A stretch of 50,760 bases of DNA from Planctomycetota bacterium (GTDB lineage: Bacteria; Planctomycetota; Planctomycetia; Pirellulales; UBA1268): positions 1 to 50,760 of the forward strand of contig VGZO01000032.1 in assembly GCA_016872555.1 (NCBI GenBank). The letters are read 5' to 3'. Positions 10,355 through 30,200 of this stretch are shown here, piece after piece. The notes beneath the pieces were generated by a model that did not search any database, was not told where the DNA came from, and saw only the letters and a program-made list of their open reading frames with translations. How positions within the stretch are numbered: the first letter of the stretch is position 1; each line of letters opens with the position of its first letter. The translations under genes were made by a program, and so were the position numbers.

Positions 10355-10381
10355 CGTGCCTCCTGTCCGCGGCGGAGCCGC

Positions 10382-11098
10382 TCAGCCGGTGTGCGCCCGC
10401 GGATCGACCGCGCCGGCCGCGGCGAAGCCGGCGGCACGGATCTGGCAGGAGTCGCAGCGGCCGCAGGGACGGCCGTCGGGGGCGGGGTCGTAGCAGCTCG
10501 TGGTCAGGCCGTGGTCGAGGCCGAGCTCGATGCCGAGCCGGACGATGTCCGCCTTGCCGAGGTGGAGGAGCGGCGTGACGATCTCGAGCGGCGTCCCCTC
10601 GACGCCGGCCTTCGTCGCCAGCGTGGCCAGCCGGGCGAAGGCGGCGATGAACTCCGGCCGGCAGTCGGGGTAGCCGCTGTAGTCGACGGCGTTGACTCCC
10701 AGCGCGATCGCCGTCGCGCCGCGTGTCTCGGCGACGGCCAGTGCCAGCGCCAGGAAGACCGTGTTCCGCGCCGGCACGTAGGTCACGGGAATCTCCGCCG
10801 CGAGGGCCGCCGCGGGGCGGTCTTTCGGCACGGCGATCGACCGGTCGACAAGCGCGCTGCCGCCACAGGCCGCCAGATCGACGGCGAGGACGACGTGGTC
10901 GGTGATCCCGAGCGCCGCGGCGATCCGGGCGGCGGCCTCGAGCTCCACCGCGTGGCGCTGGCCGTAGTCCACCGACAGCGCCGTGACGGTGTCGCCGCGC
11001 CGTACGGCCCATGCCGCCACGGTCGCCGAGTCGAGTCCGCCCGAGAGGAGCACGACGGTGCGGCGCGCGGCGCCGTGGGGGACGGTGACCTCTTCCAT
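10382..11098 (-). CDS. queC: 7-cyano-7-deazaguanine (preQ0) synthase
   Basis: A 238-residue ATP-dependent enzyme turning 7-carboxy-7-deazaguanine and ammonia into preQ0. The PP-loop [10 protein letters not shown] lies at about 17-26, [11 protein letters not shown] follows, and [18 protein letters not shown] is strongly conserved. The C-terminal [20 protein letters not shown] has the four zinc-binding cysteines. The ATG at 11098 is preferred over longer upstream possibilities because the upstream 70 residues have no QueC similarity. queC precedes queE in one operon. QueD and QueF are not in the window. The 149-base region to the divergent sugar isomerase gene is the probable promoter region for both. 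Confidence 0.95.
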
Positions 11099-11246
11099 GC
11101 CCCCGAGCCTACCCGAGCGCCGCCGCTCCGCTGATGCCGCGGACCGCGGCCGCGCCGTCCCTTCCCTTCGACCGCGCCCGCGGTGACAATCCCCTCCGGT
11201 CCGTCGGCCGCCGGCCGGCCCTCCCCCCGCCCCTGGAACGCGCACG

Positions 11247-12263
11247 ATGGCCAAGGCAGCCCGGGTGATCCTTTCCGCCCTCGCCGACGAATCGGCCTTC
11301 CACCTCACGGCAGTCGAGCAGTTCTCGGCGCTGGCGGCGCTGGGGCTGGAGTACTACTCCCTCCGCTTCATCGACGCCGGCAAGGGGGTGAAGAACGTCA
11401 TGCAGCTGACGCTGCCGGAGATCCGCCGCATCCGTCACCTCGAGGACGAGTACGGTCTCAACGTGACCTCGATCGCCTCGCCGATCGGGAAGGTCAAGCT
11501 CCGCGACGTCGAGGACGGCACCAAGAATCGGTTCGTGCCGTTCGCCAAGTACCTCGCCAAGGACGTCGCCCGGGCGTGCGAACTGGCCCACGCCTTCGAG
11601 ACCAAGCTGATCCGCGGTTTCTCCTTCTACCATCCGCGCGGCGACCGTCCCGAGGCCCATCTCGAGGAGGCGGCCGACCGGATCGGGAAGATCGCCGAGG
11701 CCTGCCACCGCTCCGACCTGACGTTCGGCTTGGAGGTCGAGGCGAATCTCGTCGGCCAGACCGGCCAGCTGCTCGCCGACATCCACCGCCGCGTGAATCA
11801 TCCGGCGCTGGTGTTGGTGTTCGACGCCGCGAATCTCGTCGTCCAGGGGATGACCGCGGCGGAGGTCTACCGGCAGTGGGAGGCGATGAAGCCCGGCCTC
11901 GGCTGGGTCCACGTCAAGGACTACCGGAAACCGACCGCCAAGTCCCGCGACGGCCACGTCGACGAAGGTGCGCTGGCGCACTTCGTCCCCGCCGACCGTG
12001 GCGCCGGCGGGCACGAGCGGATCCTTGCCGACCTGAAGTCGATGCTGCCGGCCCTGACCCGCCGGCTCGAGCACCGCGGGATCCCGGGGGTGTTCCTCGA
12101 CCTCGAGCCGCACGTCCGTGGCGGTGGGCAGTTCGGCGGCACCAGCGGACCCGACGGGATGGGAATCGCGCTCCGCGGGCTGTGCCGCGTGCTCGACGGC
12201 GCCGGGATCGACTACCATCTCCGGGACTTCGACGACCTGCTGGCGGCGCGCGGACGGAAATGA
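11247..12263 (+). CDS. Sugar phosphate isomerase/epimerase-like TIM-barrel protein
   Basis: A 338-residue member of the xylose-isomerase-like AP endonuclease family 2 fold. Candidate metal ligands lie at the expected barrel strand ends: the glutamate in FGLEVEANL, the aspartate in LVFDAANLV, the histidine in [10 protein letters not shown] and the glutamate in VFLDLEPHV. These proteins isomerise or epimerise sugars or inositol derivatives. The reaction here is unknown. Similar proteins are very numerous in planctomycetes, where many act in carbohydrate catabolism. The start ATG at 11247 is followed at once by the conserved first strand ([11 protein letters not shown]). The next gene, a radical SAM protein, begins 44 bases after the stop and could be co-transcribed. 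Confidence 0.82.
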
Positions 12264-12307
12264 CCGGTCCGCGGCCGGCGGAACGCTGACCAGCGTGGGC
12301 TTTGCGG

Positions 12308-13600
12308 ATGGCCGAAACCACCGAACCAGGCGGCTACTTCGTCGCCAACTATCCGCCGTTCTCCCGCTGGCATGCCGGTGCCGTGCCCGAGGTGCTGGCG
12401 GCCTTCGCGGCGCCCCCCACCGACGCGGCACTGGGGCTCTACCTCCACGTGCCCTTCTGCCGCAAGCGCTGCAAGTTCTGCTACTTCCGGGTCTACACCG
12501 ACACCTCGGCCGCCGATGTCGAGCGCTACTCGCAGGCCCTCGCCGCCGAGGCGGCGCTCGTCGCCTCCCGGCCCGCCGTGGCCGGGCGCACGGTGCGCTA
12601 CGTCTACTTCGGCGGTGGCACGCCGTCGTTCCTGTCGGCCCGGCAACTCGACCGGCTCGTCACCGGGCTCCGTGGCAGCCTCGGGTGGGACGCCGCGGAG
12701 GAAGTGACGTTCGAGTGCGAGCCGGGGACGCTCTCGGAGCCGAAGGTGCGGGCGCTGCGCGACCTGGGGATGACGCGGATCTCGCTCGGCGTCGAGAACT
12801 TCGACGACGCGATCCTCGAGGCCAACGGGCGGGCCCACCTGTCCGCCGAGATCTTCCGCGCCTGGGAGTGGATCCGCACCGCCGGGTTCCCCTCCACCAA
12901 CGTCGACCTGATCGCCGGGATGCTCGGCGAGACGTTCGACAGCTGGCGGAGGACGGTCGAGCGGACGCTCGCGCTCGGTGCCGACAGCATCACGATCTAC
13001 CAGTTGGAGTTGCCGCTCAATACCGTCTTCGTCCACGACGCGAAGGCCAGCGGCGGCGCGGTGCCGGTCGCCGACTGGCCGACGAAGCGCGCCTGGGTCG
13101 ACTGGGCGTTCGACCGGGCCCTGGAAAGCGGGTACTCGATCTCCAGTGCCTACACGCTCGTCCGTGATCCGGCGCGGGTCCAGTTCCGCTACCGCGACAT
13201 GCTCTGGGAGGGAAGTGATCTGGTCGCCCTCGGCGTCGCCAGCTTCGGTCACCTGTCCGGGCTCCACTACCAGAACGCGCCGCACTGGGACGACTACCTC
13301 GGGGCGATCGACGGCGGCCGACTTCCCGTCGCCCGCGGGCTACGGCCGACGCCCCGCGAGCTCCTCCTCCGCGAGACCGTCCTCGGTCTCAAGCGGGGTA
13401 CCCTCGATGTCGACCGCCTCGGGCGGAAGTACGGCGTCGATCCCGTCGCCGCCTGGGCGCCGGTCTGGGCGGGTCTCGAGGCGGAGGGCTACCTCGACCA
13501 GCTTCGGCCGCGACCGGTCATGTCGCGCCGCGGATTGCTCATGGTGGATGCCCTGCTCCATCGCTTTTTCGAGGGGGAATCGCTGGCGGCAGCCTCCTGA
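12308..13600 (+). CDS. HemN/HemW-like radical SAM protein
   Basis: A 430-residue protein of the coproporphyrinogen III oxidase-like radical SAM group. C51, C55 and C58 in FCRKRCKFCYF bind the 4Fe-4S cluster. VYFGGGTPSFLSARQL is the GGE-equivalent motif. FECEPGTLSEPKVRALRDLG and TRISLGVENFDDAILEANGR match the HemN core (T-x-E-x-n-P and R-x-S-x-G-v-Q). A C-terminal winged-helix-like HemN domain follows (about 340-430). True HemN or heme chaperone HemW function is doubtful because the gene is paired with a prenyl synthase; HemN-like enzymes also include methyltransferases and cyclopropane-forming enzymes. ATG 12308 is used; an in-frame TTG lies two codons upstream. Confidence 0.85.
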   Translation: MAETTEPGGYFVANYPPFSRWHAGAVPEVLAAFAAPPTDAALGLYLHVPFCRKRCKFCYFRVYTDTSAADVERYSQALAAEAALVASRPAVAGRTVRYVYFGGGTPSFLSARQLDRLVTGLRGSLGWDAAEEVTFECEPGTLSEPKVRALRDLGMTRISLGVENFDDAILEANGRAHLSAEIFRAWEWIRTAGFPSTNVDLIAGMLGETFDSWRRTVERTLALGADSITIYQLELPLNTVFVHDAKASGGAVPVADWPTKRAWVDWAFDRALESGYSISSAYTLVRDPARVQFRYRDMLWEGSDLVALGVASFGHLSGLHYQNAPHWDDYLGAIDGGRLPVARGLRPTPRELLLRETVLGLKRGTLDVDRLGRKYGVDPVAAWAPVWAGLEAEGYLDQLRPRPVMSRRGLLMVDALLHRFFEGESLAAAS

Positions 13601-13796
13601 CGATCCCCTTACCGAGGGGTGGGGCCGGCAGGGTTACGGCCGGGTCCGGGCTGCGGTTTCACTTGGTGTTGGCGGAGTTCAACATGGGCTGGCGAAACGC
13701 TTCGCCGGCTCGGTACGTGAGCCCTTGTGGCATCACCAACGGTCGATCGCGCCGCCGCAGGCCGCGGTGCCAGCGGGCGACCATGAGGAGCGAAGA

Positions 13797-15641
13797 GTGC
13801 CACGATCCCCGAGCGCAACCAGCCGCACCCCTGCCGCGCCGAACGGGGTGGTCGGATCTTCCGGAACCGCGACGGCCCCCCTGGCATGTCCGTCGCGGCC
13901 GGCTCTTCGCGACCGGATCCGCGCGATGGCCGCCGATCTCGTCGCACCGTGGCGCAGCCAGGGCATCCCGGCCGGAGGCAAGTCGGCGGCGTCCCTCCGA
14001 CGGCACGCGGAGGCTCTCGTCGACCGGGCTGGTGCCGGCCGGGAAACGGTCGGCTGGACGATGGTCACGATCGTGTCGGAGTACTGGCGGCAGCGGCTCG
14101 CCTCGTTGCCCGCCGGCCGTCGCCTTCTCCTCCTCCCCGACTGCCCGGTCGCCACCCACCGCGGTACCGGTGCTTCCGCAGGCCTGCATGTCTGCGGCCC
14201 GGACTGCACGCTCGGCACCGTGGCCGCGGCTGCCCGGGAGAGTGGGTGGGCGGTCAAGCCTACGTCGGCGGCGCTCGGGGGCATCGGCGCACTGCTCACC
14301 GGTCAGACCGACGGGATCCTCGGCGTCGCGAAGTTGTCACACCTCGAGAAGGCGTTCGCGATGCTGCCCGCCTTCGCCCTGCCGATCGCCGCGGTGCCGT
14401 TCGACGCCGATGCAGCGTCGGCAGCGGCCGCGCGGGGCCTGGGCTGCGCGGAGGTCGCCTCCGCAGCGGCGCTCGATCCGGCATGGATCCTCGGGCTTCT
14501 CGGTGTCGGCGGTGGTGCGGTAACGCCGATGGGGGATTACCTTCCGGTTCTCCGCGAGGCGGCCGGCCTGTTCACCGCGCAGGGGCTGGCACGGATCGAC
14601 GAGCAACTCGGCCTCGGCACCGGCCTGGGAACCGCCGTCCCGCCGGCCTCCGGCGGTGAGCGGGCCGACGTCGCCGCGGTCGATGCCACCGCGGGAATGG
14701 CGAGCGATTTCCTCTCCCGCGGGGGGAAGTTCCTCCGGCCATTCATCACGCTGGCGGCGTTCGATGCGGTGAACGGCGACCGCCGGCAGCGTGGGGAACC
14801 GGTCGGCGATCTCGACCGGTCGGCGGTCCGCGCGGCTGCGGTGGCGATCGAGATCTTCCACAAGGCATCGCTCGTCCACGACGACATCGAGGACGACGAC
14901 GCGATGCGTTACGGTCGCCCGACGCTCCATGTCGAGCGCGGCATCCCGCTGGCGGTCAACGCCGGCGACTGGCTGCTCGGCGTCGGCTACCGGATCGTGG
15001 CGGCGCTCCCCGGCCTGGCCCCCGACGTCCACCGCGACGTCGTGCGCCTGTTGGCCGATGCCCACGTGCGCCTGGCACGCGGCCAAGGGGGCGAGCTATG
15101 GTGGCGCGAGACGCCCGGCAAGGGCCTCCTCCCCACCGAGGCCCTGGAACTGTACGGGCTCAAGACGTCGCCGGCGTTCGAGGCTGCGCTGGCGATGGGG
15201 GTGCGTTTGGCGGGCCCTGATCCCGCCGCGGTGGGCGACCTCCGTGGCTACTCGCTGCACGTCGGCACCGGGTTTCAGGTGCTCAACGACCTCAAGGATT
15301 GGCAAGGGGACGCGGTCAACGCCCGCGACGCTGCCGGCGACCTCCTCGGCGGCCGGCCGACCGTCCTCTGGGCACTGGCGATCGAACGCCTCGGCAGCGA
15401 CACGGTCAGCGGGCTGTTCGCACGGGCACGGGGCGGCGATGCCCACGAACGTGGGGCCGCCCTCGCCGATGCCCGTGAGCGGTTCGCCGCGGCGGGGGTT
15501 TTCGACAGCGCGGCGGCGATCGTCGCCGCCGAGCGTTCGGCGGCGTTGGCCGCGGCCGCCACCTGCACGCTGCCGCGGCTCCGGGACGTGCTCGAGTTCC
15601 TCCTCGATCTGGCCGTACCCGACGGCGCGGTGCCCGGCTGA
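13797..15641 (+). CDS. DUF116-polyprenyl diphosphate synthase fusion
   Basis: A 614-residue two-domain protein. Residues about 60-205 resemble DUF116: LLLPDC with C116, GLHVCGPDCTLG with C133 and C137, then GVAKLSHLEKAF and ALPIAAVPF. Residues about 290-600 are a trans-polyprenyl synthase. GGKFLRP is the isoprenyl diphosphate contact, HDDIEDDDAMRYGRPTLH (362-367 acidic) is the first Asp-rich motif and FQVLNDLKDWQGD is the second, in which the first Asp is Asn. The synthase condenses C5 units with an allylic diphosphate; chain length is not evident. The GTG at 13797 is chosen because AGGAG lies 7 to 11 bases upstream and no homology extends further. Sequence before residue 40 is low complexity. 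Confidence 0.82.
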   Translation: MPRSPSATSRTPAAPNGVVGSSGTATAPLACPSRPALRDRIRAMAADLVAPWRSQGIPAGGKSAASLRRHAEALVDRAGAGRETVGWTMVTIVSEYWRQRLASLPAGRRLLLLPDCPVATHRGTGASAGLHVCGPDCTLGTVAAAARESGWAVKPTSAALGGIGALLTGQTDGILGVAKLSHLEKAFAMLPAFALPIAAVPFDADAASAAAARGLGCAEVASAAALDPAWILGLLGVGGGAVTPMGDYLPVLREAAGLFTAQGLARIDEQLGLGTGLGTAVPPASGGERADVAAVDATAGMASDFLSRGGKFLRPFITLAAFDAVNGDRRQRGEPVGDLDRSAVRAAAVAIEIFHKASLVHDDIEDDDAMRYGRPTLHVERGIPLAVNAGDWLLGVGYRIVAALPGLAPDVHRDVVRLLADAHVRLARGQGGELWWRETPGKGLLPTEALELYGLKTSPAFEAALAMGVRLAGPDPAAVGDLRGYSLHVGTGFQVLNDLKDWQGDAVNARDAAGDLLGGRPTVLWALAIERLGSDTVSGLFARARGGDAHERGAALADARERFAAAGVFDSAAAIVAAERSAALAAAATCTLPRLRDVLEFLLDLAVPDGAVPG

Positions 15642-15778: not shown

Positions 15779-16396
15779 GTGCCAGCCGCTACAGATCGCA
15801 CCGCCGGTCCCGTCGATCGAGGCGTGGTTCGTGCCCACGACGCCGTGGCCCGTGCCGAACGGCTCGTCGCCCTCGTCTGCCGGCCGGTGGAAGCGTTCGC
15901 GACGTTCACCGCCGTGGACGCGGCCGTCGTCCCGTCGCCGGCGCGCGAGCTGCTCGACCACGCCAGCCACATGACCGTGGTGATGGAACGATTCCACGGC
16001 CGGCCGCTCGAGCTGCGCGTCGTGGCCCGGATCGCCGAGCGCCCCGGTGTCGACGACTGGTACGCGCGCGAGATCCTCCTCGTCGATCGGGGCGGACGGG
16101 TCGTCCAGCACGGCATCGTCCGCATCGATCTGGCGCAGGTCGATCCGGACACCGCGCGGCGGATCCGCGCCGCCACCGAACCGCTGGGGCGTGTCCTCAT
16201 CGAGGCCGGCCTGCTCCGCGACGTGCGCGCCGTCGCGCTGCTCCAGCTCCATGCCGGTGCGCGGTTGGCGGCGCTGGTCGGCCTCCCCGAGACGCCCCCG
16301 CCCGTCCTCTACGGCCGGGTCGCCGAGATCGCGCTGTCGGGGAGCGCCGCCCCCGCCGTCCAACTCCTCGAGACGGTGGTGCCTGCGGTCGGCTGA
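15779..16396 (+). CDS. Chorismate lyase-like (UbiC/DUF98-type) protein
   Basis: A 205-residue soluble protein. LLDHASHMTVVMERFHGRPL (about 61-80), DDWYAREILLVDRGGRVVQ (about 96-114), HGIVRIDLAQVDP and ATEPLGRVLIEAGLLRDV resemble the order of motifs in UbiC-type chorismate lyases: the D-x-S-M-T start, W-x-R-E-x-x-L, and P-L-G-x-x-L. UbiC makes 4-hydroxybenzoate and pyruvate from chorismate. I judged the match by motif pattern only, so the reaction is tentative. The GTG at 15779 is the first plausible start; no clear Shine-Dalgarno is seen. It follows the DUF116-prenyl synthase by 137 bases in the same direction, a context that would suit prenylation of an aromatic ring. Confidence 0.5.
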   Translation: MPAATDRTAGPVDRGVVRAHDAVARAERLVALVCRPVEAFATFTAVDAAVVPSPARELLDHASHMTVVMERFHGRPLELRVVARIAERPGVDDWYAREILLVDRGGRVVQHGIVRIDLAQVDPDTARRIRAATEPLGRVLIEAGLLRDVRAVALLQLHAGARLAALVGLPETPPPVLYGRVAEIALSGSAAPAVQLLETVVPAVG

Positions 16397-16937
16397 CCGG
16401 TGGCGTCGCCCGATGGCGCGCCGCGGGTGGTGTCCGCCGACGGCAGCGACTGGCGGTCGAGCGAAGACGGGGCACATTGCCCAAGGTGTTTGGTGGAAGC
16501 CGTTTGCGCTGACTGTGGCGATATTGACTCACTGCGCAAGCTCTCTGTAGAGTTGGGCTGAGGGTAGTTTCGGAAAGCCGGGTTCCGCGTGAAGGATGGA
16601 GCTTTCACCGAAGCCGGTGTGACGGCCCCGGGCCAGAGGCGCGGGTGCCGGTTCCGGAGCGCCCCGAGGAGTCTGTGCGAAGGATTCGCCCCGTCGGTCC
16701 GCTGGAGTGGGCGGAATTCGGCACAGCGAGCGGTGTGATGACCGTGGAGCCCGTCCCGGCGTCGGCAAGGAGCGGTCCGGGACCGGCGGAAAGACGATGG
16801 ATCGGCGAGGAGGGATGGTTCAGGGAGGCAATCGCTGCACGGAGGCCTAGGCGTCGGGAGCCGCCCCGCGGATGGGGAGGAAACCGGTCGCCGTTTTGAC
16901 TAGCTGGACCACGGCTAGGGAGAGGGTGGTTGAGCAC
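16397..16937 (+). other. Long non-coding leader upstream of the HTH-receiver gene
   Basis: No gene is supported in these 541 bases. It has a possible promoter at 16524-16553, a small hairpin (CACCG-AAGC-CGGTG) near 16609-16622 and purine-rich stretches near 16800-16930. If the promoter is right, the transcript carries a leader of about 380 bases. I could not match it to a known riboswitch. Confidence 0.45.
16524..16553 (+). promoter_or_regulatory. Possible promoter for the HTH-receiver/kinase pair
   Basis: TTGACT (16524-16529, 5 of 6) and TAGAGT (16548-16553, 4 of 6) are separated by 18 bases. It is the best sigma70-like match in the gap. Confidence 0.35.
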
Positions 16938-17525
16938 ATGCAAAAGACTGTCTACACGACCGGTGAGGCGGCCAAGATCTGCAAAGTGAGCCAGCAGACG
17001 ATCATTCGCTGCTTCGACTCCGGGCAGCTCAAGGGGTTCCGCGTCCCCGGGAGCCGGTTCCGGAGAATTCCCCGTGACCAGTTGTTCCTGTTCATGCGGG
17101 ACAACGGCATCCCCACCGACGCCCTCGAGAGCGGGCGCCGGAAGATCCTCGTCGTCGACGACGACCAGGATCTCGTCGAGCTGATCACCGACGTCCTCGA
17201 GCGCGACGGCCGCTTCGAGACGCGGAGCGTCAACAACGGCTTCGATGCCGGGATGATGGTCAAGGATTACAGGCCCGACCTGATCGTCCTCGACGTCATG
17301 CTGCCCGACATCAACGGCAAGGAAGTCTGCCAGCGGGTGCGCAGCGATTCGACGATGGACGAGGTGCGGATCATCTGCATCTCGGGCATGGGCGAGCCCG
17401 ACAAGGTCGAGGAGTTGAAGGCCGCCGGTGCCAACGAGTTCCTCCAGAAGCCGTTCGAGGCCGAGGTGCTCGTCGACCGGATCTGTGGGCTGCTCGACAT
17501 CGAGTCGGTCGCGACCGGTTCCTGA
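16938..17525 (+). CDS. HTH-receiver response regulator (BldC/MerR-like HTH at the N-terminus)
   Basis: A 195-residue regulator in which the DNA-binding domain comes first. Residues 5-56 (YTTGEAAKICKVSQQTIIRC, then FRVPGSRFRRIPRDQLFLFM) form a winged helix of the BldC/excisionase/MerR type. Residues 68-188 are a receiver with acidic pocket D74-D76, phospho-acceptor D119 in LIVLDVMLPD, S149 and K171 in FLQKPF. Receiver-first order is the rule in bacterial regulators, so this inverted arrangement is notable. The ATG at 16938 is chosen because the HTH begins at once. A soluble histidine kinase follows within about 110 bases and is the likely partner. Confidence 0.88.
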   Translation: MQKTVYTTGEAAKICKVSQQTIIRCFDSGQLKGFRVPGSRFRRIPRDQLFLFMRDNGIPTDALESGRRKILVVDDDQDLVELITDVLERDGRFETRSVNNGFDAGMMVKDYRPDLIVLDVMLPDINGKEVCQRVRSDSTMDEVRIICISGMGEPDKVEELKAAGANEFLQKPFEAEVLVDRICGLLDIESVATGS

Positions 17526-17631
17526 TCCCGCGATCCGTCACGCGGCCTGCCGCGCGACGGGGTCGCCACTGCCGCCGCGCCGCGCGCCGGACCCCGTGTC
17601 CGGCGCGCGGTCGGTGGATGGGGCGTCGTCC

Positions 17632-18948
17632 GTGACCGTCTCCGCGGCTGACGTGTGTGGTTCCCTTGGCACCGGTCGTGCGGGGCACGGCAGCGGCGTG
17701 GCCGTGGTCGTCCGCGGCGTCGCCGCCGAACCGATCGCACTGCCCCTCACGCCGGCAGCCTGCCTGGCGCTCGCCGCAGACGTGCTCGCCGCGGCCGGGA
17801 GCGACGGGGACGCCGGTGCCACCAAGGGCGCGGTGGCGATCGACGATCCGGCGCTGGCGGTCTGGCTCGGCGGTACGGATCAGCGTGGGGCCGGGCTGTT
17901 GCAGGCCTTGGGCCGCGATCTTGTCGCCGTCGGCGCCCCCGCGGCGACGCTCCCGCGGGGCACCGAGTGGTCGCCCGAACGAATCGCCTGGGAGACGTTC
18001 GCAGCCGCGCTCCGGGCGCGGGGCGGCGGCACCGAGAACGTCCGCGATTGGGGGCGGCAGCTCCGCACCCGGATCTCCGCCGGCGGGCTGGCCGCGTTGC
18101 CCGTCGCCCCGCGCACCGACGCACTGTCGATCGAAGGGGTCGTCCTCGGCCGGGCGCTCGACCTGGCGGGACGGCATGCCCGCGTCGCCGACGGCCTCGC
18201 GGCCGAGGTGGAGGCGGCGCGGCTCGAGGGGCTCCGGGCGCTCGCCTACGGGGCCGGACACGAGATCAACAACCCGTTGGCCAACATCGCCGCCCGTGGC
18301 CAAGCGTTGCTCGTCGACGAGACCGATCCGCGTCGCCGCCGCCGTCTGGTGACGATCGTCGACCAAGCCTTCCGGGCCCGGGACATGATTGGTGCGTTGA
18401 TGCTCTTCGGCCGGCCTCCCCAGCCACGTTTCACCGAGTGCGACGTCGCCACGATCGTCTCTGCGGCGGTCGCCGCAGTCGCGGCCCGGGGGGCGGAGCG
18501 CGGCGTGACGATCGTCGCCCCGCCTGCCGCCGGTGTGGTGGCATGGGCCGACCGGACGCTCGTCGAGGAGTCGCTCCGCGCCGTGCTGGTCAATGCCATC
18601 GACGCCATGCCCGGTGGCGGTCGCGTGGTGATCGGTATCGACCGGGAACCCGCCCGTCACGGCCGGGAGCTGGCGGTCATCGTCGACGACGAGGGGCCGG
18701 GGATGGATGCCGAAACCCGCCGGGCGGCACTCGATCCGTTTTACAGCGGCCGCGAGGCCGGGCGCGGGATCGGCTTCGGGCTGACGAAGGCCGGTCGTTT
18801 CGTGGCGGCGTGCGCCGGTGAACTGTCGCTCGGCACGGCACCCGGCGGGGGCACCCGTGTGACGCTGCGGCTGGGCGTGCCGGAAGTCGCGGATCCGGCC
18901 GTACAGCCCCCCCAGACCACGCGGTCTGACGGGCAACGAGCGCGGTGA
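17632..18948 (+). CDS. Soluble sensor histidine kinase
   Basis: A 438-residue kinase with no membrane segment. The N-terminal 190 residues are alanine-rich and match no domain I recognise. The H box is AYGAGHEINNPLANI (phospho-histidine near residue 210), the N box is LVNAIDAMPGGG, G1 is VDDEGPGMD, F is DPFYSG and G2 is GRGIGFGLTKAGRF. The HEINNPL form is that of NtrB-like and PAS-linked kinases. The start is uncertain: GTG codons at 17596, 17614 and 17632 are all in frame; 17632 is used because GGGG lies upstream. The neighbouring HTH-receiver protein is the obvious partner. The signal must be cytoplasmic or reach the kinase through another protein. Confidence 0.87.
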   Translation: MTVSAADVCGSLGTGRAGHGSGVAVVVRGVAAEPIALPLTPAACLALAADVLAAAGSDGDAGATKGAVAIDDPALAVWLGGTDQRGAGLLQALGRDLVAVGAPAATLPRGTEWSPERIAWETFAAALRARGGGTENVRDWGRQLRTRISAGGLAALPVAPRTDALSIEGVVLGRALDLAGRHARVADGLAAEVEAARLEGLRALAYGAGHEINNPLANIAARGQALLVDETDPRRRRRLVTIVDQAFRARDMIGALMLFGRPPQPRFTECDVATIVSAAVAAVAARGAERGVTIVAPPAAGVVAWADRTLVEESLRAVLVNAIDAMPGGGRVVIGIDREPARHGRELAVIVDDEGPGMDAETRRAALDPFYSGREAGRGIGFGLTKAGRFVAACAGELSLGTAPGGGTRVTLRLGVPEVADPAVQPPQTTRSDGQRAR

Positions 18949-19001
18949 GCGTTCGTCTCCCCGGGTCGCCCGGACTGCCGATCCGCGGGTGCCGGCCGAC
19001 C

Positions 19002-19030
19002 TTGTCCGCATTCCCGTCGTTCTCTATTCT
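19002..19030 (+). promoter_or_regulatory. Probable promoter of shc-hpnH
   Basis: TTGTCC (19002-19007) and TATTCT (19025-19030) are separated by exactly 17 bases. Transcription would begin near 19037, after the in-frame GTG at 18989, which supports the ATG at 19106 as the cyclase start. Confidence 0.55.
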
Positions 19031-19040
19031 CCGGCCGGAG
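19029..19040. promoter_or_regulatory. Palindrome over the shc transcription start, candidate operator
   Basis: CTCCGGCCGGAG is a perfect 12-base palindrome that overlaps the end of the -10 box and the expected start point. A repressor bound here would block initiation. In GC-rich DNA such palindromes also arise by chance. Confidence 0.35.
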
Positions 19041-19105
19041 GTTTGGAAGTCGCTCGGCGATGGATCGCCGGGGGCGCCGGGACGTTTCGCTGCAGGGATG
19101 CGTTC

Positions 19106-21283
19106 ATGAGGCACGCCAGACTGATCGCCGGACCCGCCGACGGAGCGGTGGATGCGATCGTGGAGCCGCTCGTCGGATCGACGACGCTCGACCGCGCGAT
19201 CGATGGACCAGTGGGCGGTCGGTCCTTTCCCCGGGTGGCGGTCGTCACGCATCCGGCTGACGCCTTGCGGTCGATCGGCGCCGGCATCGACCGCGAGCGG
19301 GCGACGGTGCCCCGCGAAACCGGTCGCTCCCTCCCCCAGGCGATGCGGCTCACCGCCGACTGGCTCCGTCAGCGGCAGGCGGCCGACGGTCACTGGCGCG
19401 GACCGCTGGAAGGGGACACGATCCTCGAGAGCGAATACCTGCTGATCCTCGCGTGGGCGGGGCGCCTCGACGGCGCCGAGGTCCCGGGAGCCGCCCGGAG
19501 GATCCTCGCCGAGCAGCTCCCGCAGGGCGGCTGGTCGATCCATCCCGGTGGTCCCGTCGACGTCAGCGCGAGCGTGAAGGCCTATTTCGCCCTCAAGCTC
19601 ACCGGACACGATCCGGCATCGGAGCCGCTGCGACGCGCCCGTCGGGCGATCGACCGGGCGGGTGGACCATGGGCGGTGAACAGCTTCACCCGCTTCTACC
19701 TCGCCCTGCTCGGCCAGATTCCCTACGCAGCCTGCCCGGCGGTGCCCCCCGAGATGGTGCTGCTCCCCGACTGGTTTCCGGTCAACCTCCACCGGGTATC
19801 GGCGTGGTCGCGCACGATGATCGTGCCGCTGTCGCTGATGTGGGCGTTCAAGCCGGTGCGCGCCGTCCCGCCGGAGCGTGGGATCGGCGAACTGTTCACC
19901 GGCACCGGGCAACGTGGTGCCGCGGTCAAGTCGGGACCGTGGGCCCGGTTTTTCCGCGGCGTCGATCAGGTCATCAAGGCCTGTGAGCGGTTCGGGATCG
20001 TGCCGCTCCGTCCCCGGGCGGTGCAGGCCTGCCGGCGCTGGATGCTCGATCGTTTCGCCGGCAGTGACGGCCTCGGTGCGATCTTTCCGCCGATCGTGTG
20101 GAGCCTCGTCGCCCTCCGCGCCATGGGATGCCGCGAGGACGCGCCGGAAGTGGAGGAGTGCTGGAGGCAACTCGCCCGCCTCGTCGAGCGCGAGCCCGAC
20201 GGGACGACGCGGCTCGAGCCCTGCCGCTCGCCGGTCTGGGACACCGCGATCACCGTCATCGCGCTGGTCGAGGCGGCGCGCGGCGCCGACGGCGCGGATG
20301 TCGATCGGGGCGTCGACTGGTTGCTCGATGCCGAGGTCCGCATCAAGGGGGACTGGGTCGGGGCAGTACCCGGCGCCGAGGGGATCGAGGCCTCGGGCTG
20401 GTGTTTCCAGTACGCCAATCGCTTCTATCCCGACGTCGACGACACGGCGATGGTCGTGATCTCGCTGGTCACGTGGCGCGATGCCGCCCAACGCCGCGCG
20501 ACGGGCGATCCCGCCGCCCGGTGCCGGCTCGACCGCGTGGCCGCGGCGCTCGGCCGCGCCTGCCGGTGGCTGGCAGCGATGCAGAACTCCGACGGCGGCT
20601 GGGGTGCGTTCGACCGCGACAACGATCTGGCGCTGTTGTGCGAGGTGCCGTTCGCCGATCACAACGCGATGATCGACCCGAGCACGCCGGATCTCGCCGG
20701 CCGGGTCCTCGAGGCGTTCGGCAAGACCGGGCTCCGCATCGGTCATCCGGCAGTCGATCGGGCGGTGGCGTACCTCCGTCGCACCCAGGAATCGACCGGG
20801 GCGTGGTTCGGCCGGTGGGGCGTGAACTACGTCTACGGTACCTGGCAAGCGCTCGAGGGGCTGAGGGCAGTCGGCGTCGCGGGGACCGATCCGCTGATCA
20901 CCCGCGGTGCGGACTGGCTGGCGGGCTGCCAGCAGGCCGACGGCGGCTGGGGGGAGTCGCCCGAGAGCTACGCCGATCCGTCCCTCGCCGGCATCGGTCC
21001 GACGACGGCGTCGCAGACCGCCTGGGCGGTGGCTGGGCTGGTCGCGGCCGGACGGGCCGAGTCGCGTGCCGTCCGCCGCGGGGTGCAGTGGCTGCTCGAG
21101 CGCCAGGGGGCGGACGGTGCCTGGGAGCAGCGCGAGTTCACCGGCACCGGCTTCCCGAAGGTCTTCTACCTGCGCTACCACTACTACCCCGTCTATTTTC
21201 CGCTGCTGGCCCTGGCGCGGTGCAGTGTGGCGGCGTCCGCCGCCCGTGGTCCGGTGCCGGTGCCCGAGGAGTCGCGTGCATGA
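19106..21283 (+). CDS. shc: Squalene-hopene cyclase
   Basis: A 725-residue type II triterpene cyclase that folds squalene into hopene or hopanol at the membrane. The catalytic acid motif DVDDTA lies at about 443-448. QW repeats that brace the alpha/alpha barrels are visible in LPQGGWS, MQNSDGGWGAFDRDN, QQADGGWGES and QGADGAWEQ, and the C-terminus GTGFPKVFYLRYHYYPVYFPLLAL is typical. The start ATG 19106 has AGGGA upstream and lies inside the transcript predicted from the promoter at 19002-19030. The first 75 residues (VAVVTHPADALRSIG) are longer than in most homologues, which are about 630-680 residues. The stop overlaps the hpnH start by four bases. It is also called hpnF. Confidence 0.96.
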   Translation: MRHARLIAGPADGAVDAIVEPLVGSTTLDRAIDGPVGGRSFPRVAVVTHPADALRSIGAGIDRERATVPRETGRSLPQAMRLTADWLRQRQAADGHWRGPLEGDTILESEYLLILAWAGRLDGAEVPGAARRILAEQLPQGGWSIHPGGPVDVSASVKAYFALKLTGHDPASEPLRRARRAIDRAGGPWAVNSFTRFYLALLGQIPYAACPAVPPEMVLLPDWFPVNLHRVSAWSRTMIVPLSLMWAFKPVRAVPPERGIGELFTGTGQRGAAVKSGPWARFFRGVDQVIKACERFGIVPLRPRAVQACRRWMLDRFAGSDGLGAIFPPIVWSLVALRAMGCREDAPEVEECWRQLARLVEREPDGTTRLEPCRSPVWDTAITVIALVEAARGADGADVDRGVDWLLDAEVRIKGDWVGAVPGAEGIEASGWCFQYANRFYPDVDDTAMVVISLVTWRDAAQRRATGDPAARCRLDRVAAALGRACRWLAAMQNSDGGWGAFDRDNDLALLCEVPFADHNAMIDPSTPDLAGRVLEAFGKTGLRIGHPAVDRAVAYLRRTQESTGAWFGRWGVNYVYGTWQALEGLRAVGVAGTDPLITRGADWLAGCQQADGGWGESPESYADPSLAGIGPTTASQTAWAVAGLVAAGRAESRAVRRGVQWLLERQGADGAWEQREFTGTGFPKVFYLRYHYYPVYFPLLALARCSVAASAARGPVPVPEESRA

Positions 21284-22389
21284 GCGTGCCTGTCGGACAG
21301 ATGGTCGCCGTCGTCGGGCACGTGCTGCGGCAGCGGCTCCGCGGCAACGCCCGCTATCCGCTCGTGCTGATGCTCGAGCCGTTGTTCCGCTGCAATCTCG
21401 CCTGCGGAGGGTGCGGCAAGATCCAGCATCCCGCGGCCGTGCTCCGCCGCCACCTGTCGGTCGAGCAGTGCCTCGCGGCAGTCGACGAGTGCGGGGCACC
21501 GGTCGTGTCGATCCCGGGGGGCGAGCCACTGCTCCACCCCGACATCGAGCGGATCGTCGAGGGCATCGTCGCCCGGCGGAAGTACCTCTATCTGTGCACC
21601 AACGCGTTGAAGCTCGAGGAGATGCTGCCGCGCTTCCGGCCCTCGCCCTACCTCGCCTTCTCCGTCCACCTCGACGGACCGCGCGAGGAACACGACCACG
21701 CCGTCTGTCGGGAGGGCGTGTACGACGTCGCCGTGGCGGCCATCAAGGCGGCGCGGAGGGCCGGTTTCCGGGTGACCACGAACTCGACGCTGTTCACCGA
21801 CGCCGATCCGGTGCGCTACCGGCGGTTTTTCGACGAGGTCATGGCCCTCGGCGTCGAGGGGATGATGATCTCGCCGGGCTATCCCTACGCCAAGGCGCCG
21901 GACCAGGACCATTTCCTCCCCCGGCGCCGCAGTGAAGCGCTGTTCCGGCGGATTCTCGAAGCCGCGCCCCGTCGCTGGCGGTTCAACCAGTCGCCCGTGT
22001 TCCTCGAGTTTCTCAAGGGGGCATGGGATCTCGAGTGCCGGCCGTGGGGGACGCCGACCTACAACCTGTTCGGTTGGCAGCGCCCCTGCTACCTGCTCGA
22101 GGAGGGGTACGCGACCACGTTCCGGCAATTGATGGAAGAGACCGACTGGGACGCCTACGGCCGGGCCAGTGGCAATCCGAAGTGCGGCAATTGCATGGTC
22201 CACTGCGGCTACGAACCGGCCGCCGTCGAGGCGACGTTCGGTTCGCTCGGCGGCTTGCTGGCGACGGCGCGGCTTGTGCTCTTCGGTCCGCCGGGCGATC
22301 AGGGGCCGACCTCGGTGGATCCCCAACCAGCCGCCCGGCCCGCCGGTGCGTCGCTGCCGCAGTTACCGATCCTCGAGCAGGTCGCCTGA
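21280..22389 (+). CDS. hpnH: Adenosyl-hopene transferase, radical SAM
   Basis: A 369-residue radical SAM enzyme that adds the 5'-deoxyadenosyl radical of SAM to hopene, giving adenosylhopane, the precursor of C35 hopanoids. C38, C42 and C45 in FRCNLACGGCGKIQHP bind the cluster, and SIPGGEPLLHPDI is the GGE motif. VHLDGPREEHDHAVCREGVY, GVEGMMISPGYPYAKAPDQ and NPKCGNCMVHCGYEP, an auxiliary-cluster-like C-terminal cysteine set, match HpnH. Its ATG overlaps the cyclase stop (ATGA), so cyclisation and side-chain extension are translationally coupled. The last 40 residues are proline/alanine-rich and probably dispensable. Confidence 0.95.
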   Translation: MSVPVGQMVAVVGHVLRQRLRGNARYPLVLMLEPLFRCNLACGGCGKIQHPAAVLRRHLSVEQCLAAVDECGAPVVSIPGGEPLLHPDIERIVEGIVARRKYLYLCTNALKLEEMLPRFRPSPYLAFSVHLDGPREEHDHAVCREGVYDVAVAAIKAARRAGFRVTTNSTLFTDADPVRYRRFFDEVMALGVEGMMISPGYPYAKAPDQDHFLPRRRSEALFRRILEAAPRRWRFNQSPVFLEFLKGAWDLECRPWGTPTYNLFGWQRPCYLLEEGYATTFRQLMEETDWDAYGRASGNPKCGNCMVHCGYEPAAVEATFGSLGGLLATARLVLFGPPGDQGPTSVDPQPAARPAGASLPQLPILEQVA

Positions 22390-22436
22390 GTCGGCAGCCT
22401 CGGGCCACCGGCCTCGTCCCCGCAGCCAGCGCCCGT

Positions 22437-22901: not shown

Positions 22902-22926
22902 CGTGGTTCCGGCCGCAGGGCCCGGT

Positions 22927-23832: not shown

Positions 23833-23872
23833 GATCCAGGCTCCTCGCGCGACGGGGACGATCGACGCGGGA

Positions 23873-23901
23873 ATCGTAGTCCAATCGCCGGGGGGCTGCA
23901 A
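23873..23901 (-). promoter_or_regulatory. Probable promoter of the sulfurtransferase-sufE operon
   Basis: On the minus strand TTGCAG (23901-23896) and TACGAT (23878-23873) are separated by exactly 17 bases. The start codon is 41 bases beyond the -10 box. Confidence 0.55.
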
Positions 23902-23919: not shown

Positions 23920-24081
23920 GACCGCCATGGTTCGGCTACAACACAGGAACCACGCCGTCCGTGATCGGACTCTTGGTGGCGGCGGGCACGTGGCCCGCGT
24001 GGCGGTGCGAGTCGGTTCCGATTCCTGCGGCGGAGCGTCGTCTTCGACGGTGCTTCTTCCGCCCTGCTCCGGGTGCATGCG

Positions 24082-25774: not shown

Positions 25775-26728
25775 TCAGGCCATCGGCAGCCTGGCCGCGG
25801 CGGCCGAACGCAATTCACGCGGGAGTGGGAAATAGACCTGTTCCTCGCGGATCGTGCGCTCTTCGACGGTGGCGCCGAAGCGGTCGCGGAGCCAGGCGAC
25901 GCATTCCTGCACGACGTTCTCCGGGGCGCTGGCGCCGGCGGTGACGACGACGGTCTCGTTGCCGGAGAACCACGCCGGGTCGATCTCGTGGGGCCCGTCG
26001 ATGAGATGGGCGCGGCGCCCGACATCGAGGGCCAGTTCGGCCAACCGCTGGCTGTTGGAGCTGTTGTGGCTGCCGACGACGAGGACGATGTCGGCACCCT
26101 CGGCGAGGATCCTGACCGCCTCCTGGCGGTTTTGCGTGGCGTAGCAGATGTCGTCCTTCGGCGGACCGGCGATCGCCGGAAAGCGCTGCTTGAGGCGGCC
26201 GATGATCCGGGAAGCGTCGTCCACGGAGAGCGTCGTCTGCGTCAGGTAGGCGAGCCGGTCGGCAGCGGTGAACGGCAAACGGTCGACGTCGGCCTCGGTC
26301 TCGACCAAGGTGATCGATGCCAGAGCGTGACCCATCGTGCCGATCACCTCGTCGTGCCCCTCGTGGCCGATGAGCACGATGTGGTACCCGGCCGACGCAT
26401 AACGGACCGCCTCGAGGTGGACCTTCGTCACCAGCGGGCAGGTGGCGTCGATCGCGGTCAGCCGCCGCGCCTCCGCCAAGCGCCTCACCGCGGGCGCCAC
26501 GCCATGCGCCGAGAACAGCAACACCGCCCCCTCCGGAACCTCCTCGACCGCGTCGACGAACACGACGCCCTCGCGGGTGAACCGTTCCACGACGTGCTTG
26601 TTGTGGACGATCTCGTGAAACACGTAGACCGGCTTGCCGTAGCAGCGGAGTGCGGTTTCCAGGGTTTCGATCGCCATGTTGACCCCGGCGCAAAAGCCGC
26701 GGGGGCCGGCGAGAAGGATCGTGAGCAT
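25775..26728 (-). CDS. ispH: 4-hydroxy-3-methylbut-2-enyl diphosphate reductase
   Basis: A 317-residue enzyme that makes IPP and DMAPP in the last step of the MEP pathway. Three cysteines hold its 4Fe-4S cluster: GPRGFCAGVNMAIE near residue 13, IDATCPLVTKVH, and DDICYATQNRQEAV. VYVFHEIVHNKHVV, LIGHEGHDEVIGTMG and VVGSHNSSNSQRL are the conserved substrate-binding stretches. The ATG at 26728 is used because MLTILLAGPRGFCAG is the normal N-terminus; an upstream in-frame start (26818 or 26800) would add unconserved residues. The gene is divergent from hpnC-hpnD-hpnE with a 202-base gap, so precursor supply and precursor use face each other. Confidence 0.95.
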   Translation of the reverse strand: MLTILLAGPRGFCAGVNMAIETLETALRCYGKPVYVFHEIVHNKHVVERFTREGVVFVDAVEEVPEGAVLLFSAHGVAPAVRRLAEARRLTAIDATCPLVTKVHLEAVRYASAGYHIVLIGHEGHDEVIGTMGHALASITLVETEADVDRLPFTAADRLAYLTQTTLSVDDASRIIGRLKQRFPAIAGPPKDDICYATQNRQEAVRILAEGADIVLVVGSHNSSNSQRLAELALDVGRRAHLIDGPHEIDPAWFSGNETVVVTAGASAPENVVQECVAWLRDRFGATVEERTIREEQVYFPLPRELRSAAAARLPMA

Positions 26729-26930
26729 GCGGCGTTGTCCCGTTCGGATCGCATCGAAAAACGGTCCGGCGTATCCTAGCAGGCTGCCGCTGATCGCCAT
26801 GCCACGGTCGTGCCGCACGACGCCCGGGGCCGGCCGAAAGGTTTCCCGGCGACTCGCCGGCGGTCACCATCCGTGCCAGTTACGAGGTCGGCCGATCCGC
26901 CCGCTCCCCCCGACCCGCCGACCGACGCCC

Positions 26931-27920
26931 GTGAACCCCGAGCGTTTCCATCCCGAGTTCACCCCCCGGCCCGGCCGCGACTCGGCCGCCTGGGATCTCG
27001 CGCCGCTGCCGAGGAGCCTCGATCGAGCTGCGGCCGAGGCGTACTGCCGGCAGGTCGCCGGCCGCCACTACGAGAACTTCAGCGTCGTCACGGCGCTGGT
27101 CCCGCGCCGCCTGCGGCAGGACTTCGCCACCGTCTACACGTTCTGCCGCTGGAGCGACGATCTCGCCGACGAGGCCCCCGACCCATCCGCCGGCCTCGAG
27201 GCCCTCGCGCGGTGGCGCGAAGGGCTCGACGACTGCTTCGCCGGTCGCCCCGGGCATCCGGTATTCGTGGCGCTGGCGGCGACCGCGCGACGCGGAGGCC
27301 TCGACGCCCGACCGTTTCACGATCTCCTCGACGCCTTCGCCGAGGACCTCGCGTTCGACCGCGACGGCGTCGTCGTCCGCTATCCCGACCGTCGCGCGTT
27401 GGTGGGCTACTGCCGCCGGTCGGCCGATCCGGTGGGGCGGATCGTCCTCGGTCTCGACGGCTGCCACGGCGAGGCGGAAGCACGCCACTCCGATGCGATC
27501 TGCACCGGATTGCAGCTGGTCAACTTCTGGCAGGACCTGCGCCGCGACCGCCTCGCCGGCAGGGTCTACGTGCCCGAGGAGGACCTCCGCGACCATGGTG
27601 TCACGGCCGACGACCTCGCCGCACCGCGGGCCTCGCGGGAGGTCCGCGCGCTGGTCGCGTCGCTCGTCGCCTGGGTGCACGAGTGCTTCGCCGCCGGCGC
27701 GGCGCTCGAAGCCACCGCGCCGCCCGCCCTGCGCCCGGCGATCGGCTTGTTCCGTGCCGGCGGGAAGGCGCTGGTGACCGCGATCGAACGTGCCGGGCAC
27801 GACACGCTTGCGGCGCGGCCGACGGTGTCGTCGCCGACCAAAGCCTGGCTCCTGGCGCGGGCACTGCTTACGGCGGCGTGGTGGCGGGGCCGCCCGGTCG
27901 TCACGGAGCGGGGAGCGTGA
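26931..27920 (+). CDS. hpnC: Hydroxysqualene synthase HpnC
   Basis: A 329-residue trans-prenyltransferase-like protein. In the HpnCDE route HpnC converts presqualene diphosphate to hydroxysqualene. AGRHYENFSVVTALVP is the HpnC signature (HYENF). YTFCRWSDDLADE (70-81) is the first acidic motif, and LVNFWQDLRRDRLAGRVYVPEEDL is the second region. The GTG at 26931 is taken as start because the family N-terminus lies just downstream; no Shine-Dalgarno is visible, and other starts are possible. The stop overlaps the GTG start of hpnD by four bases. Confidence 0.93.
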   Translation: MNPERFHPEFTPRPGRDSAAWDLAPLPRSLDRAAAEAYCRQVAGRHYENFSVVTALVPRRLRQDFATVYTFCRWSDDLADEAPDPSAGLEALARWREGLDDCFAGRPGHPVFVALAATARRGGLDARPFHDLLDAFAEDLAFDRDGVVVRYPDRRALVGYCRRSADPVGRIVLGLDGCHGEAEARHSDAICTGLQLVNFWQDLRRDRLAGRVYVPEEDLRDHGVTADDLAAPRASREVRALVASLVAWVHECFAAGAALEATAPPALRPAIGLFRAGGKALVTAIERAGHDTLAARPTVSSPTKAWLLARALLTAAWWRGRPVVTERGA

Positions 27921-28825
27921 CCGTGGACACCCTCGCCGCCGACCATCGCCACTGCGCCGAGGTGTTGTCGCGTTCCGGTTCGAGCTTCACGCTGCCGATC
28001 CGGCTCCTGCCGGCCGCCAAGCGGCGCGGCACGACGGCGCTGTACGCCTTCTGCCGACGGGCCGATGACATCGTCGACGACGCCGCCGACCGGCACGCCG
28101 CCGGGGTGGCGCTCGACGCCTTCGGCGCCGACGTCGACGAGGCGCTGGCCGGCCGGGTGTCGTCCGATCCGATGCTCCGCGCCCTGGCCGACACGGTGCG
28201 CCGCTTCTCGATCCCCCGCCGTCACCTCGCGGAGATCCTCGCCGGCGTCCGCATGGACCTCGATCACGCCGGCTACGAGACCTTCGACGAGTTGCGCACC
28301 TACTGCGCCCGGGTGGCGGGGGCCGTCGGGCTGGCGGCGATCCACGTCTGGGGCTTCCACTCGCCCCGTGCCCTCGAGGTGGCCCACGATTGCGGCCTCG
28401 CCTTCCAGCTCACCAACATCCTCCGCGACATCCCCGAGGACCGGGCCCGTGGCCGCCTCTACCTTCCGGCGAGCGACCTGGCCGCAGCCGGGTGCGCGGT
28501 GGAGGAGTTGACCGCCGCTGCTCCCTCGTCGGGGCTGGTGCGGCTGGCGGAGCTCGAGTGCCGCCGCGCCCGCGACTTGTTCCTCCGCGCTGCCGAGCTC
28601 GACGGCCTGCTGTCGGCCGACGGGCGCCGGGTGTTCAGGGCGATGTTCGGGGTCTACGGCTGCCTGTTCCGCGCGGTCGAACGCGCCGGCGCGGCGATCT
28701 TCCGCCAGCGTGTCCGGACCGGCAAAGCACGGGTGATGGCGGCGGCGCTGCTCACCGTGGGGATCGGTCCCCGGGCGATTCTGGCCCGTTCAATGCCACT
28801 GCAGGAGCGACACCGTCATGGGTGA
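27917..28825 (+). CDS. hpnD: Presqualene diphosphate synthase HpnD
   Basis: A 302-residue enzyme that joins two farnesyl diphosphates head to head into presqualene diphosphate. SSFTLPIRLLPAAKRRGTTALYAFCRRADDIVDD (23-55) contains the first Asp-rich motif DDIVDD. YCARVAGAVGLAAIHVWG and LAFQLTNILRDIPEDRARGRLYLP carry the second acidic motif DIPED. The GTG at 27917 has GGGAG directly upstream (27911-27915) and overlaps the hpnC stop as GTGA. The 3' end overlaps the hpnE start by eight bases. hpnC, hpnD and hpnE therefore form a tightly coupled unit. Confidence 0.94.
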   Translation: MTVDTLAADHRHCAEVLSRSGSSFTLPIRLLPAAKRRGTTALYAFCRRADDIVDDAADRHAAGVALDAFGADVDEALAGRVSSDPMLRALADTVRRFSIPRRHLAEILAGVRMDLDHAGYETFDELRTYCARVAGAVGLAAIHVWGFHSPRALEVAHDCGLAFQLTNILRDIPEDRARGRLYLPASDLAAAGCAVEELTAAAPSSGLVRLAELECRRARDLFLRAAELDGLLSADGRRVFRAMFGVYGCLFRAVERAGAAIFRQRVRTGKARVMAAALLTVGIGPRAILARSMPLQERHRHG

Positions 28826-30200
28826 GCGGCGCGTCGTCGTCGTCGGCGGCGGCCTCGCCGGACTGGCGGCGGCCGACGCCCTGGCCGGCGTCGGCGTGCC
28901 GGTGACGCTCGTCGAGGCCCGCCGCGGTGTCGGCGGCCGTGCCGCCTCGTTCGAAGATCCGGCCGGGGGCGGCGTCGTGGACGCCTGTCAGCACGTCGCC
29001 ATGGGCTGCTGCACGCACTTCCGCGATCTTTGCCGGCGGGCCGGGATCCTCGACGCGGTGCGCACCGACCGGACGCTGTGGTTCATCGGCCCCGACGGCC
29101 GAAGATCGGCGTGCACGCCGGCGCGCTGGCTGCCGGCGCCGCTCCACCTCGCGCCGCTGCTGGCCGGGATGCAGCACTTCAGCCTCGCCGAGCGCGCGAG
29201 CTTGGCAGTGGGGATGCTCCGGTTGGCGCGGCCGCTGGCGAACCCCGAGGGAATCACCGCCGCCCGCTGGTTGGCCGCGATCGGCCAGCGGGAACGGGTG
29301 GTCCGGCTGTTCTGGCAGCCGGTCATCGAAAGCGCTCTGGGGGAATCGCTCGACCTCGTCGGGCTCGGGCCGGCGCGCAAGGTGATCGTCGATGGCTTCC
29401 TCGCCCATCGCGAGGCGGTCGAGCTGCTCGTGCCCCGGCGGCCTCTCGGCGAGTTGTTCGGCGCGCGGTTGGCGGACTGGCTGGTGACGCGCGGCGTGGT
29501 GCTCCGCACCGGGGCGCCGGCGACGGCCGTTCACCGCGACGGGGCCGGGGCGGCCTGCGCCGTGGCGACCCCGGCCGGTGATCATCCCGCCACGGCGGTC
29601 GTCGCGGCGGTCCCGTGGCGCGCCGCGGCGCGGCTCGTGCCCGATGCCGTGCCCGCGGTCGCCGAGCACTTCGCCGGGTCGCCGATCACGGCGGTGCACC
29701 TGTGGTTCGACCGCGAGGTGATCGACCTCCCCCATGCGGTGCTCGTCGGGCGGACGAGCCAGTGGGTGTTCCGCCCTGACACGGGTGCCGAGGCGGAAGC
29801 ACCGGGGTATTGCCAGGTGGTGATCAGCGCGTCCCGAGGGCTGCTCGGTGGTGATCGGCAGCTGCTCGTCGACACCGTCGTCGACGAGCTCGCCGCGGTC
29901 TTTCCAGACGTCGCCGGCGCCACGGTCCGTCACGCGCGGGTGGTCACCGACCCGACGGCGGTACTCTCGGTCCGACCCGGTGTCGACGCCGTCCGGCCGC
30001 GGGCCGCGACGGGGATCCCGGGGCTGTTCCTCGCCGGCGATTGGACCGCTACCGGGTGGCCGTCGACGATGGAGGGGGCGATCCGCAGCGGACGGACGGC
30101 CGCGGTCGCCGTGGCCCGCCATCTGGGTGCCCCCCTGCCTCCCCCCGTGCCCGAGCTGCCGCGCGCCTGGTTGACCCGGATGATCGCCGGCCGCGGCTGA
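28818..30200 (+). CDS. hpnE: Hydroxysqualene dehydroxylase/FAD oxidoreductase HpnE
   Basis: A 460-residue flavoprotein of the phytoene desaturase/amine oxidase fold that reduces hydroxysqualene to squalene. The dinucleotide-binding motif VVVVGGGLAGLAAADAL lies at 6-22, followed by VTLVEARRGVGGRAASF. DACQHVAMGCC, LFWQPVIESALGES and the C-terminal FLAGDWTATGWPSTMEGAIRSGRTAA, where the flavin is held, are typical of HpnE. The start overlaps hpnD by eight bases. It converges on the hpnG-like gene with 18 bases between stops, so the two are not in the same operon. Confidence 0.94.
   Translation: MGERRVVVVGGGLAGLAAADALAGVGVPVTLVEARRGVGGRAASFEDPAGGGVVDACQHVAMGCCTHFRDLCRRAGILDAVRTDRTLWFIGPDGRRSACTPARWLPAPLHLAPLLAGMQHFSLAERASLAVGMLRLARPLANPEGITAARWLAAIGQRERVVRLFWQPVIESALGESLDLVGLGPARKVIVDGFLAHREAVELLVPRRPLGELFGARLADWLVTRGVVLRTGAPATAVHRDGAGAACAVATPAGDHPATAVVAAVPWRAAARLVPDAVPAVAEHFAGSPITAVHLWFDREVIDLPHAVLVGRTSQWVFRPDTGAEAEAPGYCQVVISASRGLLGGDRQLLVDTVVDELAAVFPDVAGATVRHARVVTDPTAVLSVRPGVDAVRPRAATGIPGLFLAGDWTATGWPSTMEGAIRSGRTAAVAVARHLGAPLPPPVPELPRAWLTRMIAGRG

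Follow-up and report, generated by a model that had tools for sequence, protein, structure and literature searches.

A DUF116–prenyl diphosphate synthase fusion in Planctomycetes and the erosion of DUF116 cysteines in copies without a neighboring terpene cyclase

To our knowledge, the DUF116 proteins of archaea and bacteria have no assigned function, which raises the question of what such a domain might do when joined in a single chain to an enzyme of isoprenoid biosynthesis. A gene of this kind is found in a planctomycete contig (VGZO01000032.1 of assembly GCA_016872555.1), positions 1 to 50,760 of which are referred to here as the window.

The fusion gene

The gene and its parts are as follows.

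13786..13790, + strand: ribosome-binding site AGGAG, 6 nt 5' of the GTG, read from the sequence
13797..15641, + strand: DUF116–prenyl diphosphate synthase fusion gene, 614 aa, GTG start
13893..14615, + strand: diverged DUF116 module, residues 33-273, mean pLDDT 91.1 when modeled alone with AlphaFold2
14016-14387, + strand: part matched by PF01976, residues 74-197
14697..15389, + strand: trans-prenyl diphosphate synthase domain, PF00348, residues 301-531, E=8e-38

The frame runs for 614 codons from the GTG at 13797 to a stop that ends at 15641; in a scan for promoters and terminators, no signal relevant to this gene exceeded those of shuffled sequences. The preliminary description read it as a DUF116 domain and a complete trans-prenyl synthase in one frame, which is confirmed by orthologs that match both families at 1e-34 or better. 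In the window protein itself, the PF00348 search that had been suggested recovered the synthase at 130.5 bits (cut-off 27). The corresponding search for PF01976 located a match within residues 60-205, yet this match reaches 16.2 bits (E=0.0076) and thus falls below the curated cut-off of 25, and a PF01976 scan of the whole source genome returned no match at 1e-3. For further copies from the window's family, the match to PF01976 reaches 19-24 bits. The DUF116 assignment is accordingly marginal on the window protein alone, and the homology is supported through intermediates. Matches to some part of the window protein were detected in all 39 relatives, with family-level copies being 51-97% identical to it and order-level orthologs 38-41% identical and aligned over nearly the full length; the assignment is secured because these full-length orthologs match PF01976 at 1e-34 to 1e-38 within one frame. 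The canonical copies that were scored (two order-level orthologs and one paralog of the type B subfamily described below) reach 117-129 bits against DUF116 and 134-157 bits against the synthase, again in a single frame. A chance open reading frame or an assembly join is ruled out by the presence of a 97% identical copy in a different genome and by conservation across many genera, and the conserved frame, being under purifying selection, argues against both as well.

Distribution and previous report of the fusion

The fusion is old and has already been reported: a DUF116-polyprenyl synthetase fusion was described with Psta_0175 of Pirellula staleyi as the named example (Makarova et al. 2015; PMC5898192). 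By this description, Psta_0175 resembles the window protein in having the two domains in one chain, and both Psta_0175 and the closest named matches of the fusion come from the same bacterial group, Pirellulales. The paper devotes one sentence to the fusion, proposing electron transfer, and includes neither the reduced-cysteine lineage, the NDxxD and DDxxD subfamilies, the cyclase neighbor nor the co-loss pattern described below. A search of the open-access literature for the terpenoid gene cluster turned up nothing other than that paper and, as far as the literature searched shows, neither the lineage with fewer cysteines nor the link to the cyclase has been described before.

Among the 294 planctomycete genomes surveyed, PF01976 is detected above the cut-off in 98 and the fusion in 70 (full fusion profile, E<=1e-60), with both domains in one chain as in the published case. 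The possibility that related genomes always encode the two domains separately, which had been named as an observation that would count against the fusion, is thereby excluded. The fused proteins fall into two subfamilies, type A (NDxxD), which includes the window copy, and type B (DDxxD), and some genomes of the window's family contain both. Separate DUF116 proteins of about 150-180 aa are typical of one planctomycete family, where they are encoded between the methionyl-tRNA formyltransferase gene (fmt) and rsmB. The window's family is monophyletic with support of 0.99-1.0 in a tree that has very long outgroup branches and an unreliable root; the latter led us to abandon a rooted tree of the subfamilies.

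The archaeal DUF116 proteins (COG1852/arCOG02078) belong to the same Pfam family, PF01976, and no cysteine of the set is missing from the canonical fused copies. Archaeal members possess two N-terminal transmembrane segments, and their genes neighbor those for sulfite/nitrite reductases or ATPases (PMC5898192). Unlike them, the planctomycete copies are fused to a prenyl synthase, and the window copy is devoid of three of the seven cysteines.

The synthase domain

The two Asp-rich motifs are located as follows.

14880..14900, + strand: first Asp-rich motif, DDIEDDD, residues 362-368, followed by RYG where RRG is usual
15285..15299, + strand: second Asp-rich motif, NDLKD, residues 497-501

The synthase half starts its conserved set with GGKFLRP from residue 309 and contains the first Asp-rich motif and the IPP-binding K/R; GGKxxRP, DDIED, GQGxEL, KT and xDLxD are intact across the fused set, the window protein included. 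In nearly all fused proteins, RYG replaces the RRG that follows the first motif. The second motif, NDLKD instead of DDxxD, had been regarded as abnormal for the window protein. This did not hold up: N occupies that position in 102 of the 118 fused proteins, so NDLKD is a trait of the subfamily, and a defect peculiar to the window protein is ruled out by the same count. In class I terpene synthases, the N of the similarly placed NSE motif is a ligand of Mg, and an NDLKD synthase could therefore be active.

The closest solved structures of the synthase half are archaeal geranylgeranyl diphosphate (GGPP) synthases (5jfq, 1wy0), and in a whole-chain model of an order-level ortholog (mean pLDDT 80.2) the C-terminal half matches GGPP synthases. 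With these archaeal-type enzymes (PF00348) the fusion shares a DDxxD first motif without an insertion, and it differs from them by the Ala at -5 before this motif (aromatic there) and the Phe at -8, as seen in the alignment, as well as by RYG for RRG and N for D in the second motif. Judging by Ala -5 and Phe -8, the product of the fused synthase is likely C20 or longer. An ordinary farnesyl diphosphate (FPP) synthase is encoded on a different contig of the source genome, so FPP supply does not require the fused enzyme; a third synthase is encoded on contig 37, which also carries a gene of the phytoene/squalene-synthase family.

The cysteine site of the DUF116 domain

Four cysteines of the DUF116 half are retained in the window's lineage.

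14142..14207, + strand: stretch encoding C116, C133 and C137
14445-14447, + strand: codon of C217, the fourth conserved cysteine

The alignment of canonical DUF116 proteins includes seven conserved cysteines, all of which are present in the large majority of the other fused and solo copies. C116, C133 and C137 are found in the window protein as originally noted and, together with C217, are kept in all 19 copies of the window's family, all of which lack the remaining three. The four-cysteine site of this family is kept under purifying selection, with dN/dS of the DUF116 part of the window protein being about as low as that of the synthase part. It might be argued that DUF116 in the window's family has degenerated and now serves only in folding or as a linker, making the protein simply another prenyl synthase, and the sub-threshold Pfam score, the three lost cysteines and the additional ordinary FPP synthase of the source genome would all be compatible with this. 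We consider such a remnant improbable, given the strong purifying selection (omega of 0.04 against a 97% identical relative and 0.23 against a roughly 71% identical one) and the four cysteines that are invariant in 19 of 19 copies.

Further erosion was detected in G026, G038 (the type A copy), G125 and the second copy of G143. Both cysteines of the CGxC core remain in the first three of these and in the window's family; for the second G143 copy, the alignment shows none of the seven.

No solved relative of DUF116 is recognizable by sequence in the PDB, and comparison of the DUF116 model using Foldseek and VIA-align produced only weak alpha/beta matches (Z about 5), none of them above noise. 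These matches may be said to agree loosely with the flavodoxin-like fold that has been guessed for DUF116 (PMC5898192).

Gene neighborhoods of the fusion in relatives

The proposal that the fusion ties DUF116 to isoprenoid chemistry is strongly supported by gene neighborhoods. Outside the window's family, a cyclase of the squalene-hopene cyclase (SHC) superfamily lies directly upstream of the fusion, on the same strand, in 66 of the 78 type A copies (median gap of 41 bp), and in 61 of 70 the next gene downstream encodes a protein of about 185 aa. The order differs in type B: an SHC-like cyclase is found downstream in 14 of 15 copies, along with a small alpha/alpha-toroid protein, and upstream lie genes for GcvH-like, CobW-like, ferredoxin and radical SAM proteins. 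The neighboring cyclases have the DxDD motif (intact in 86 of 87) and SQHop_cyclase domains, as in the SHC superfamily, and are distinct from the true SHC carried by the same genomes, scoring 124 bits against the SHC equivalog model, which has a cut-off of 431. The identification of this neighbor of about 640 aa as an SHC-like cyclase rules out Dxs, which was considered as a candidate.

The type B run is conserved at four loci (L035, L156, L160 and L188), where a GcvH-like protein, a CobW-type GTPase, a cysteine protein of about 120 aa and a ferredoxin are followed by a radical SAM/SPASM protein, the DUF116-synthase, the toroid protein and the class II cyclase; a cysteine desulfurase is sometimes present as well. 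The GcvH-like protein of this run contains an E-x-x-K-A motif resembling that around a lipoyl lysine.

Such neighbors bring to mind the role in electron transfer that Makarova et al. 2015 (PMC5898192) suggested for archaeal DUF116: the domain might pass electrons to redox enzymes encoded in the terpenoid cluster, radical SAM proteins among them, with the fusion doing no more than placing it together with the pathway. The ferredoxin, radical SAM/SPASM, GcvH-like and CobW-type genes just upstream in type B fit this possibility, and so does the HemN-like radical SAM gene adjacent to the fusion in 19 of 19 members of the window's family; however, redox genes occur within 9 kb upstream in just 9-14 of the 78 type A copies, and we view this explanation as rather unlikely.

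Joint loss of the cyclase and the cysteines

Across the 294 genomes, the fusion is present in 70 and the cyclase in 63, with 61 containing both, 9 the fusion alone and 2 the cyclase alone (Fisher p about 1e-50, ignoring relatedness). When single copies with enough flank were counted, this cyclase was found within 9 kb of 96 of the 104 resolved cysteine-intact copies, being absent from the other 8, and of 0 of the 23 cysteine-eroded copies. The latter correspond to about four independent events as inferred from family membership, namely the window's family, where the SHC-like partner is missing from beside the fusion, G026, G038 and the G125/G143 lineage. Both states coexist in G143 and in G038, where the intact copy adjoins the cyclase and the eroded one lies elsewhere, and G026 and G125 have no such cyclase anywhere in the genome. 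In all eroded lineages, the synthase motifs are intact. The link between cysteines and cyclase is strong but not absolute. G024 and G035 retain the cyclase and the downstream gene although both the fused gene and any DUF116 are absent, which shows that the cyclase has no strict requirement for the fusion. At these two loci (L204 and L205), the fusion gene is absent from between the cyclase and the downstream gene as if cleanly deleted.

The preliminary description had suggested metal or redox control of the synthase. In this scenario, DUF116 would sense redox state or metal and so gate the synthase to which it is joined, with cluster loss or metal occupancy switching chain elongation. The permanent one-chain fusion over the whole phylum, the cysteine-rich site and the Fe-S ferredoxin and radical SAM genes of some related clusters would be in keeping with a sensor. 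Such control is nevertheless not the best fit to the erosion pattern and appears rather doubtful: the synthase motifs are conserved where the cysteines have eroded, erosion follows the absence of the cyclase and not any change in the synthase, and one planctomycete family has the separate DUF116 without a synthase between fmt and rsmB.

The explanation that we favor, while putting it slightly below an even chance, is that the fused prenyl synthase may work in a polycyclic-terpenoid pathway and that the DUF116 cysteine site would serve this pathway rather than the condensation, because the cysteines are lost only in the absence of an adjacent cyclase, with the synthase motifs undecayed. The fused enzyme would be a functional trans-prenyl diphosphate synthase, its product probably all-E and C20 or longer, and the planctomycete fusion would belong to an operon-like cluster whose class II (proton-initiated, DxDD) cyclase of the SHC superfamily forms the polycyclic terpenoid, with the DUF116 cysteines as a putative accessory site for a metal or an Fe-S cluster. 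The three cysteines missing from the window's family would have gone together with the cyclase partner; in this family, the protein probably supplies prenyl diphosphate to hopanoid or another prenyl pool, and the remaining four-cysteine site, which may bind Zn or a cluster, is most likely a structural or regulatory metal site. More tentatively, DUF116 might be a cysteine-liganded (probably Fe-S or Zn) module of an undescribed planctomycete polycyclic-terpenoid pathway that decays with cyclase loss. Its candidate partners are the divergent class II cyclase and a weakly chorismate-lyase-like protein, with radical SAM, ferredoxin, GcvH-like and CobW proteins in some lineages; once the cyclase is lost, the seven-cysteine site would decay, down to the four-cysteine core in the window's family. 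The cyclase of G024 and G035 that is maintained without the fusion and the eight cysteine-intact copies without a nearby cyclase speak against the favored explanation, as do the ordinary FPP synthase of the source genome and the small number of independent erosion events, about four, behind the 23 eroded copies.

The repeated co-loss of DUF116 cysteines and a terpene cyclase amounts to a specific claim that is genetically testable in culturable planctomycetes, and it points to a polycyclic-terpenoid gene cluster that lacks a description in the open-access literature searched. If true, it would place DUF116 in a functional context for the first time, and the (mero)terpenoid route involved might be new.

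Genes around the fusion in the window

The following genes surround the fusion.

12302..13600, + strand: HemN/HutW-like radical SAM gene, directly upstream, as in 19/19 in the window's family
15779..16396, + strand: 205 aa gene with no assigned family, weakly chorismate-lyase-like (Rv2949c/2NWI)
18989..21283, + strand: squalene-hopene cyclase (TIGR01507, 618.9 bits), DxDD present
21280..22389, + strand: HpnH, adenosyl-hopene transferase, 5' boundary approximate
26676..27920, + strand: HpnC squalene synthase
27968..28729, + strand: second SQS/PSY-family gene, matched part (PF00494, E=8.7e-71)
28818..30200, + strand: HpnE hydroxysqualene dehydroxylase

A true SHC is encoded about 3.3 kb downstream of the fusion (within 9 kb) in 14 of 17 members of the window's family. 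From its position between HpnC and HpnE, the gene at 27968..28729 is inferred to be HpnD. The hopanoid region (18989-30200) lies on one strand and has the ABC-F translation factor EttA (24073-25755) among its genes.

In most relatives, a counterpart of the gene at 15779-16396 immediately follows the fusion, and the protein family shares the conserved motifs LLxHxxHMT...E and YxRxixL...PLGRxLI. Its matches to chorismate lyase are too weak for an identification and provide a lead only: the comparison with 2NWI gave E=0.11, PF01947 was detected in 3 of 26 members (best 0.005), and a PF01947 search across the phylum found none.

Between the fusion and the SHC, positions 16872-18948 encode a response regulator containing HTH_17, kept in 16 of 17 members of the window's family, and a histidine kinase, kept in 15 of 17; this pair is a possible regulator of the hopanoid region. 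The opposite strand carries, at 9638-11308, QueC together with a radical SAM gene (QueE-like, judging by its neighbor), both of which are conserved near the fusion in the window's family.
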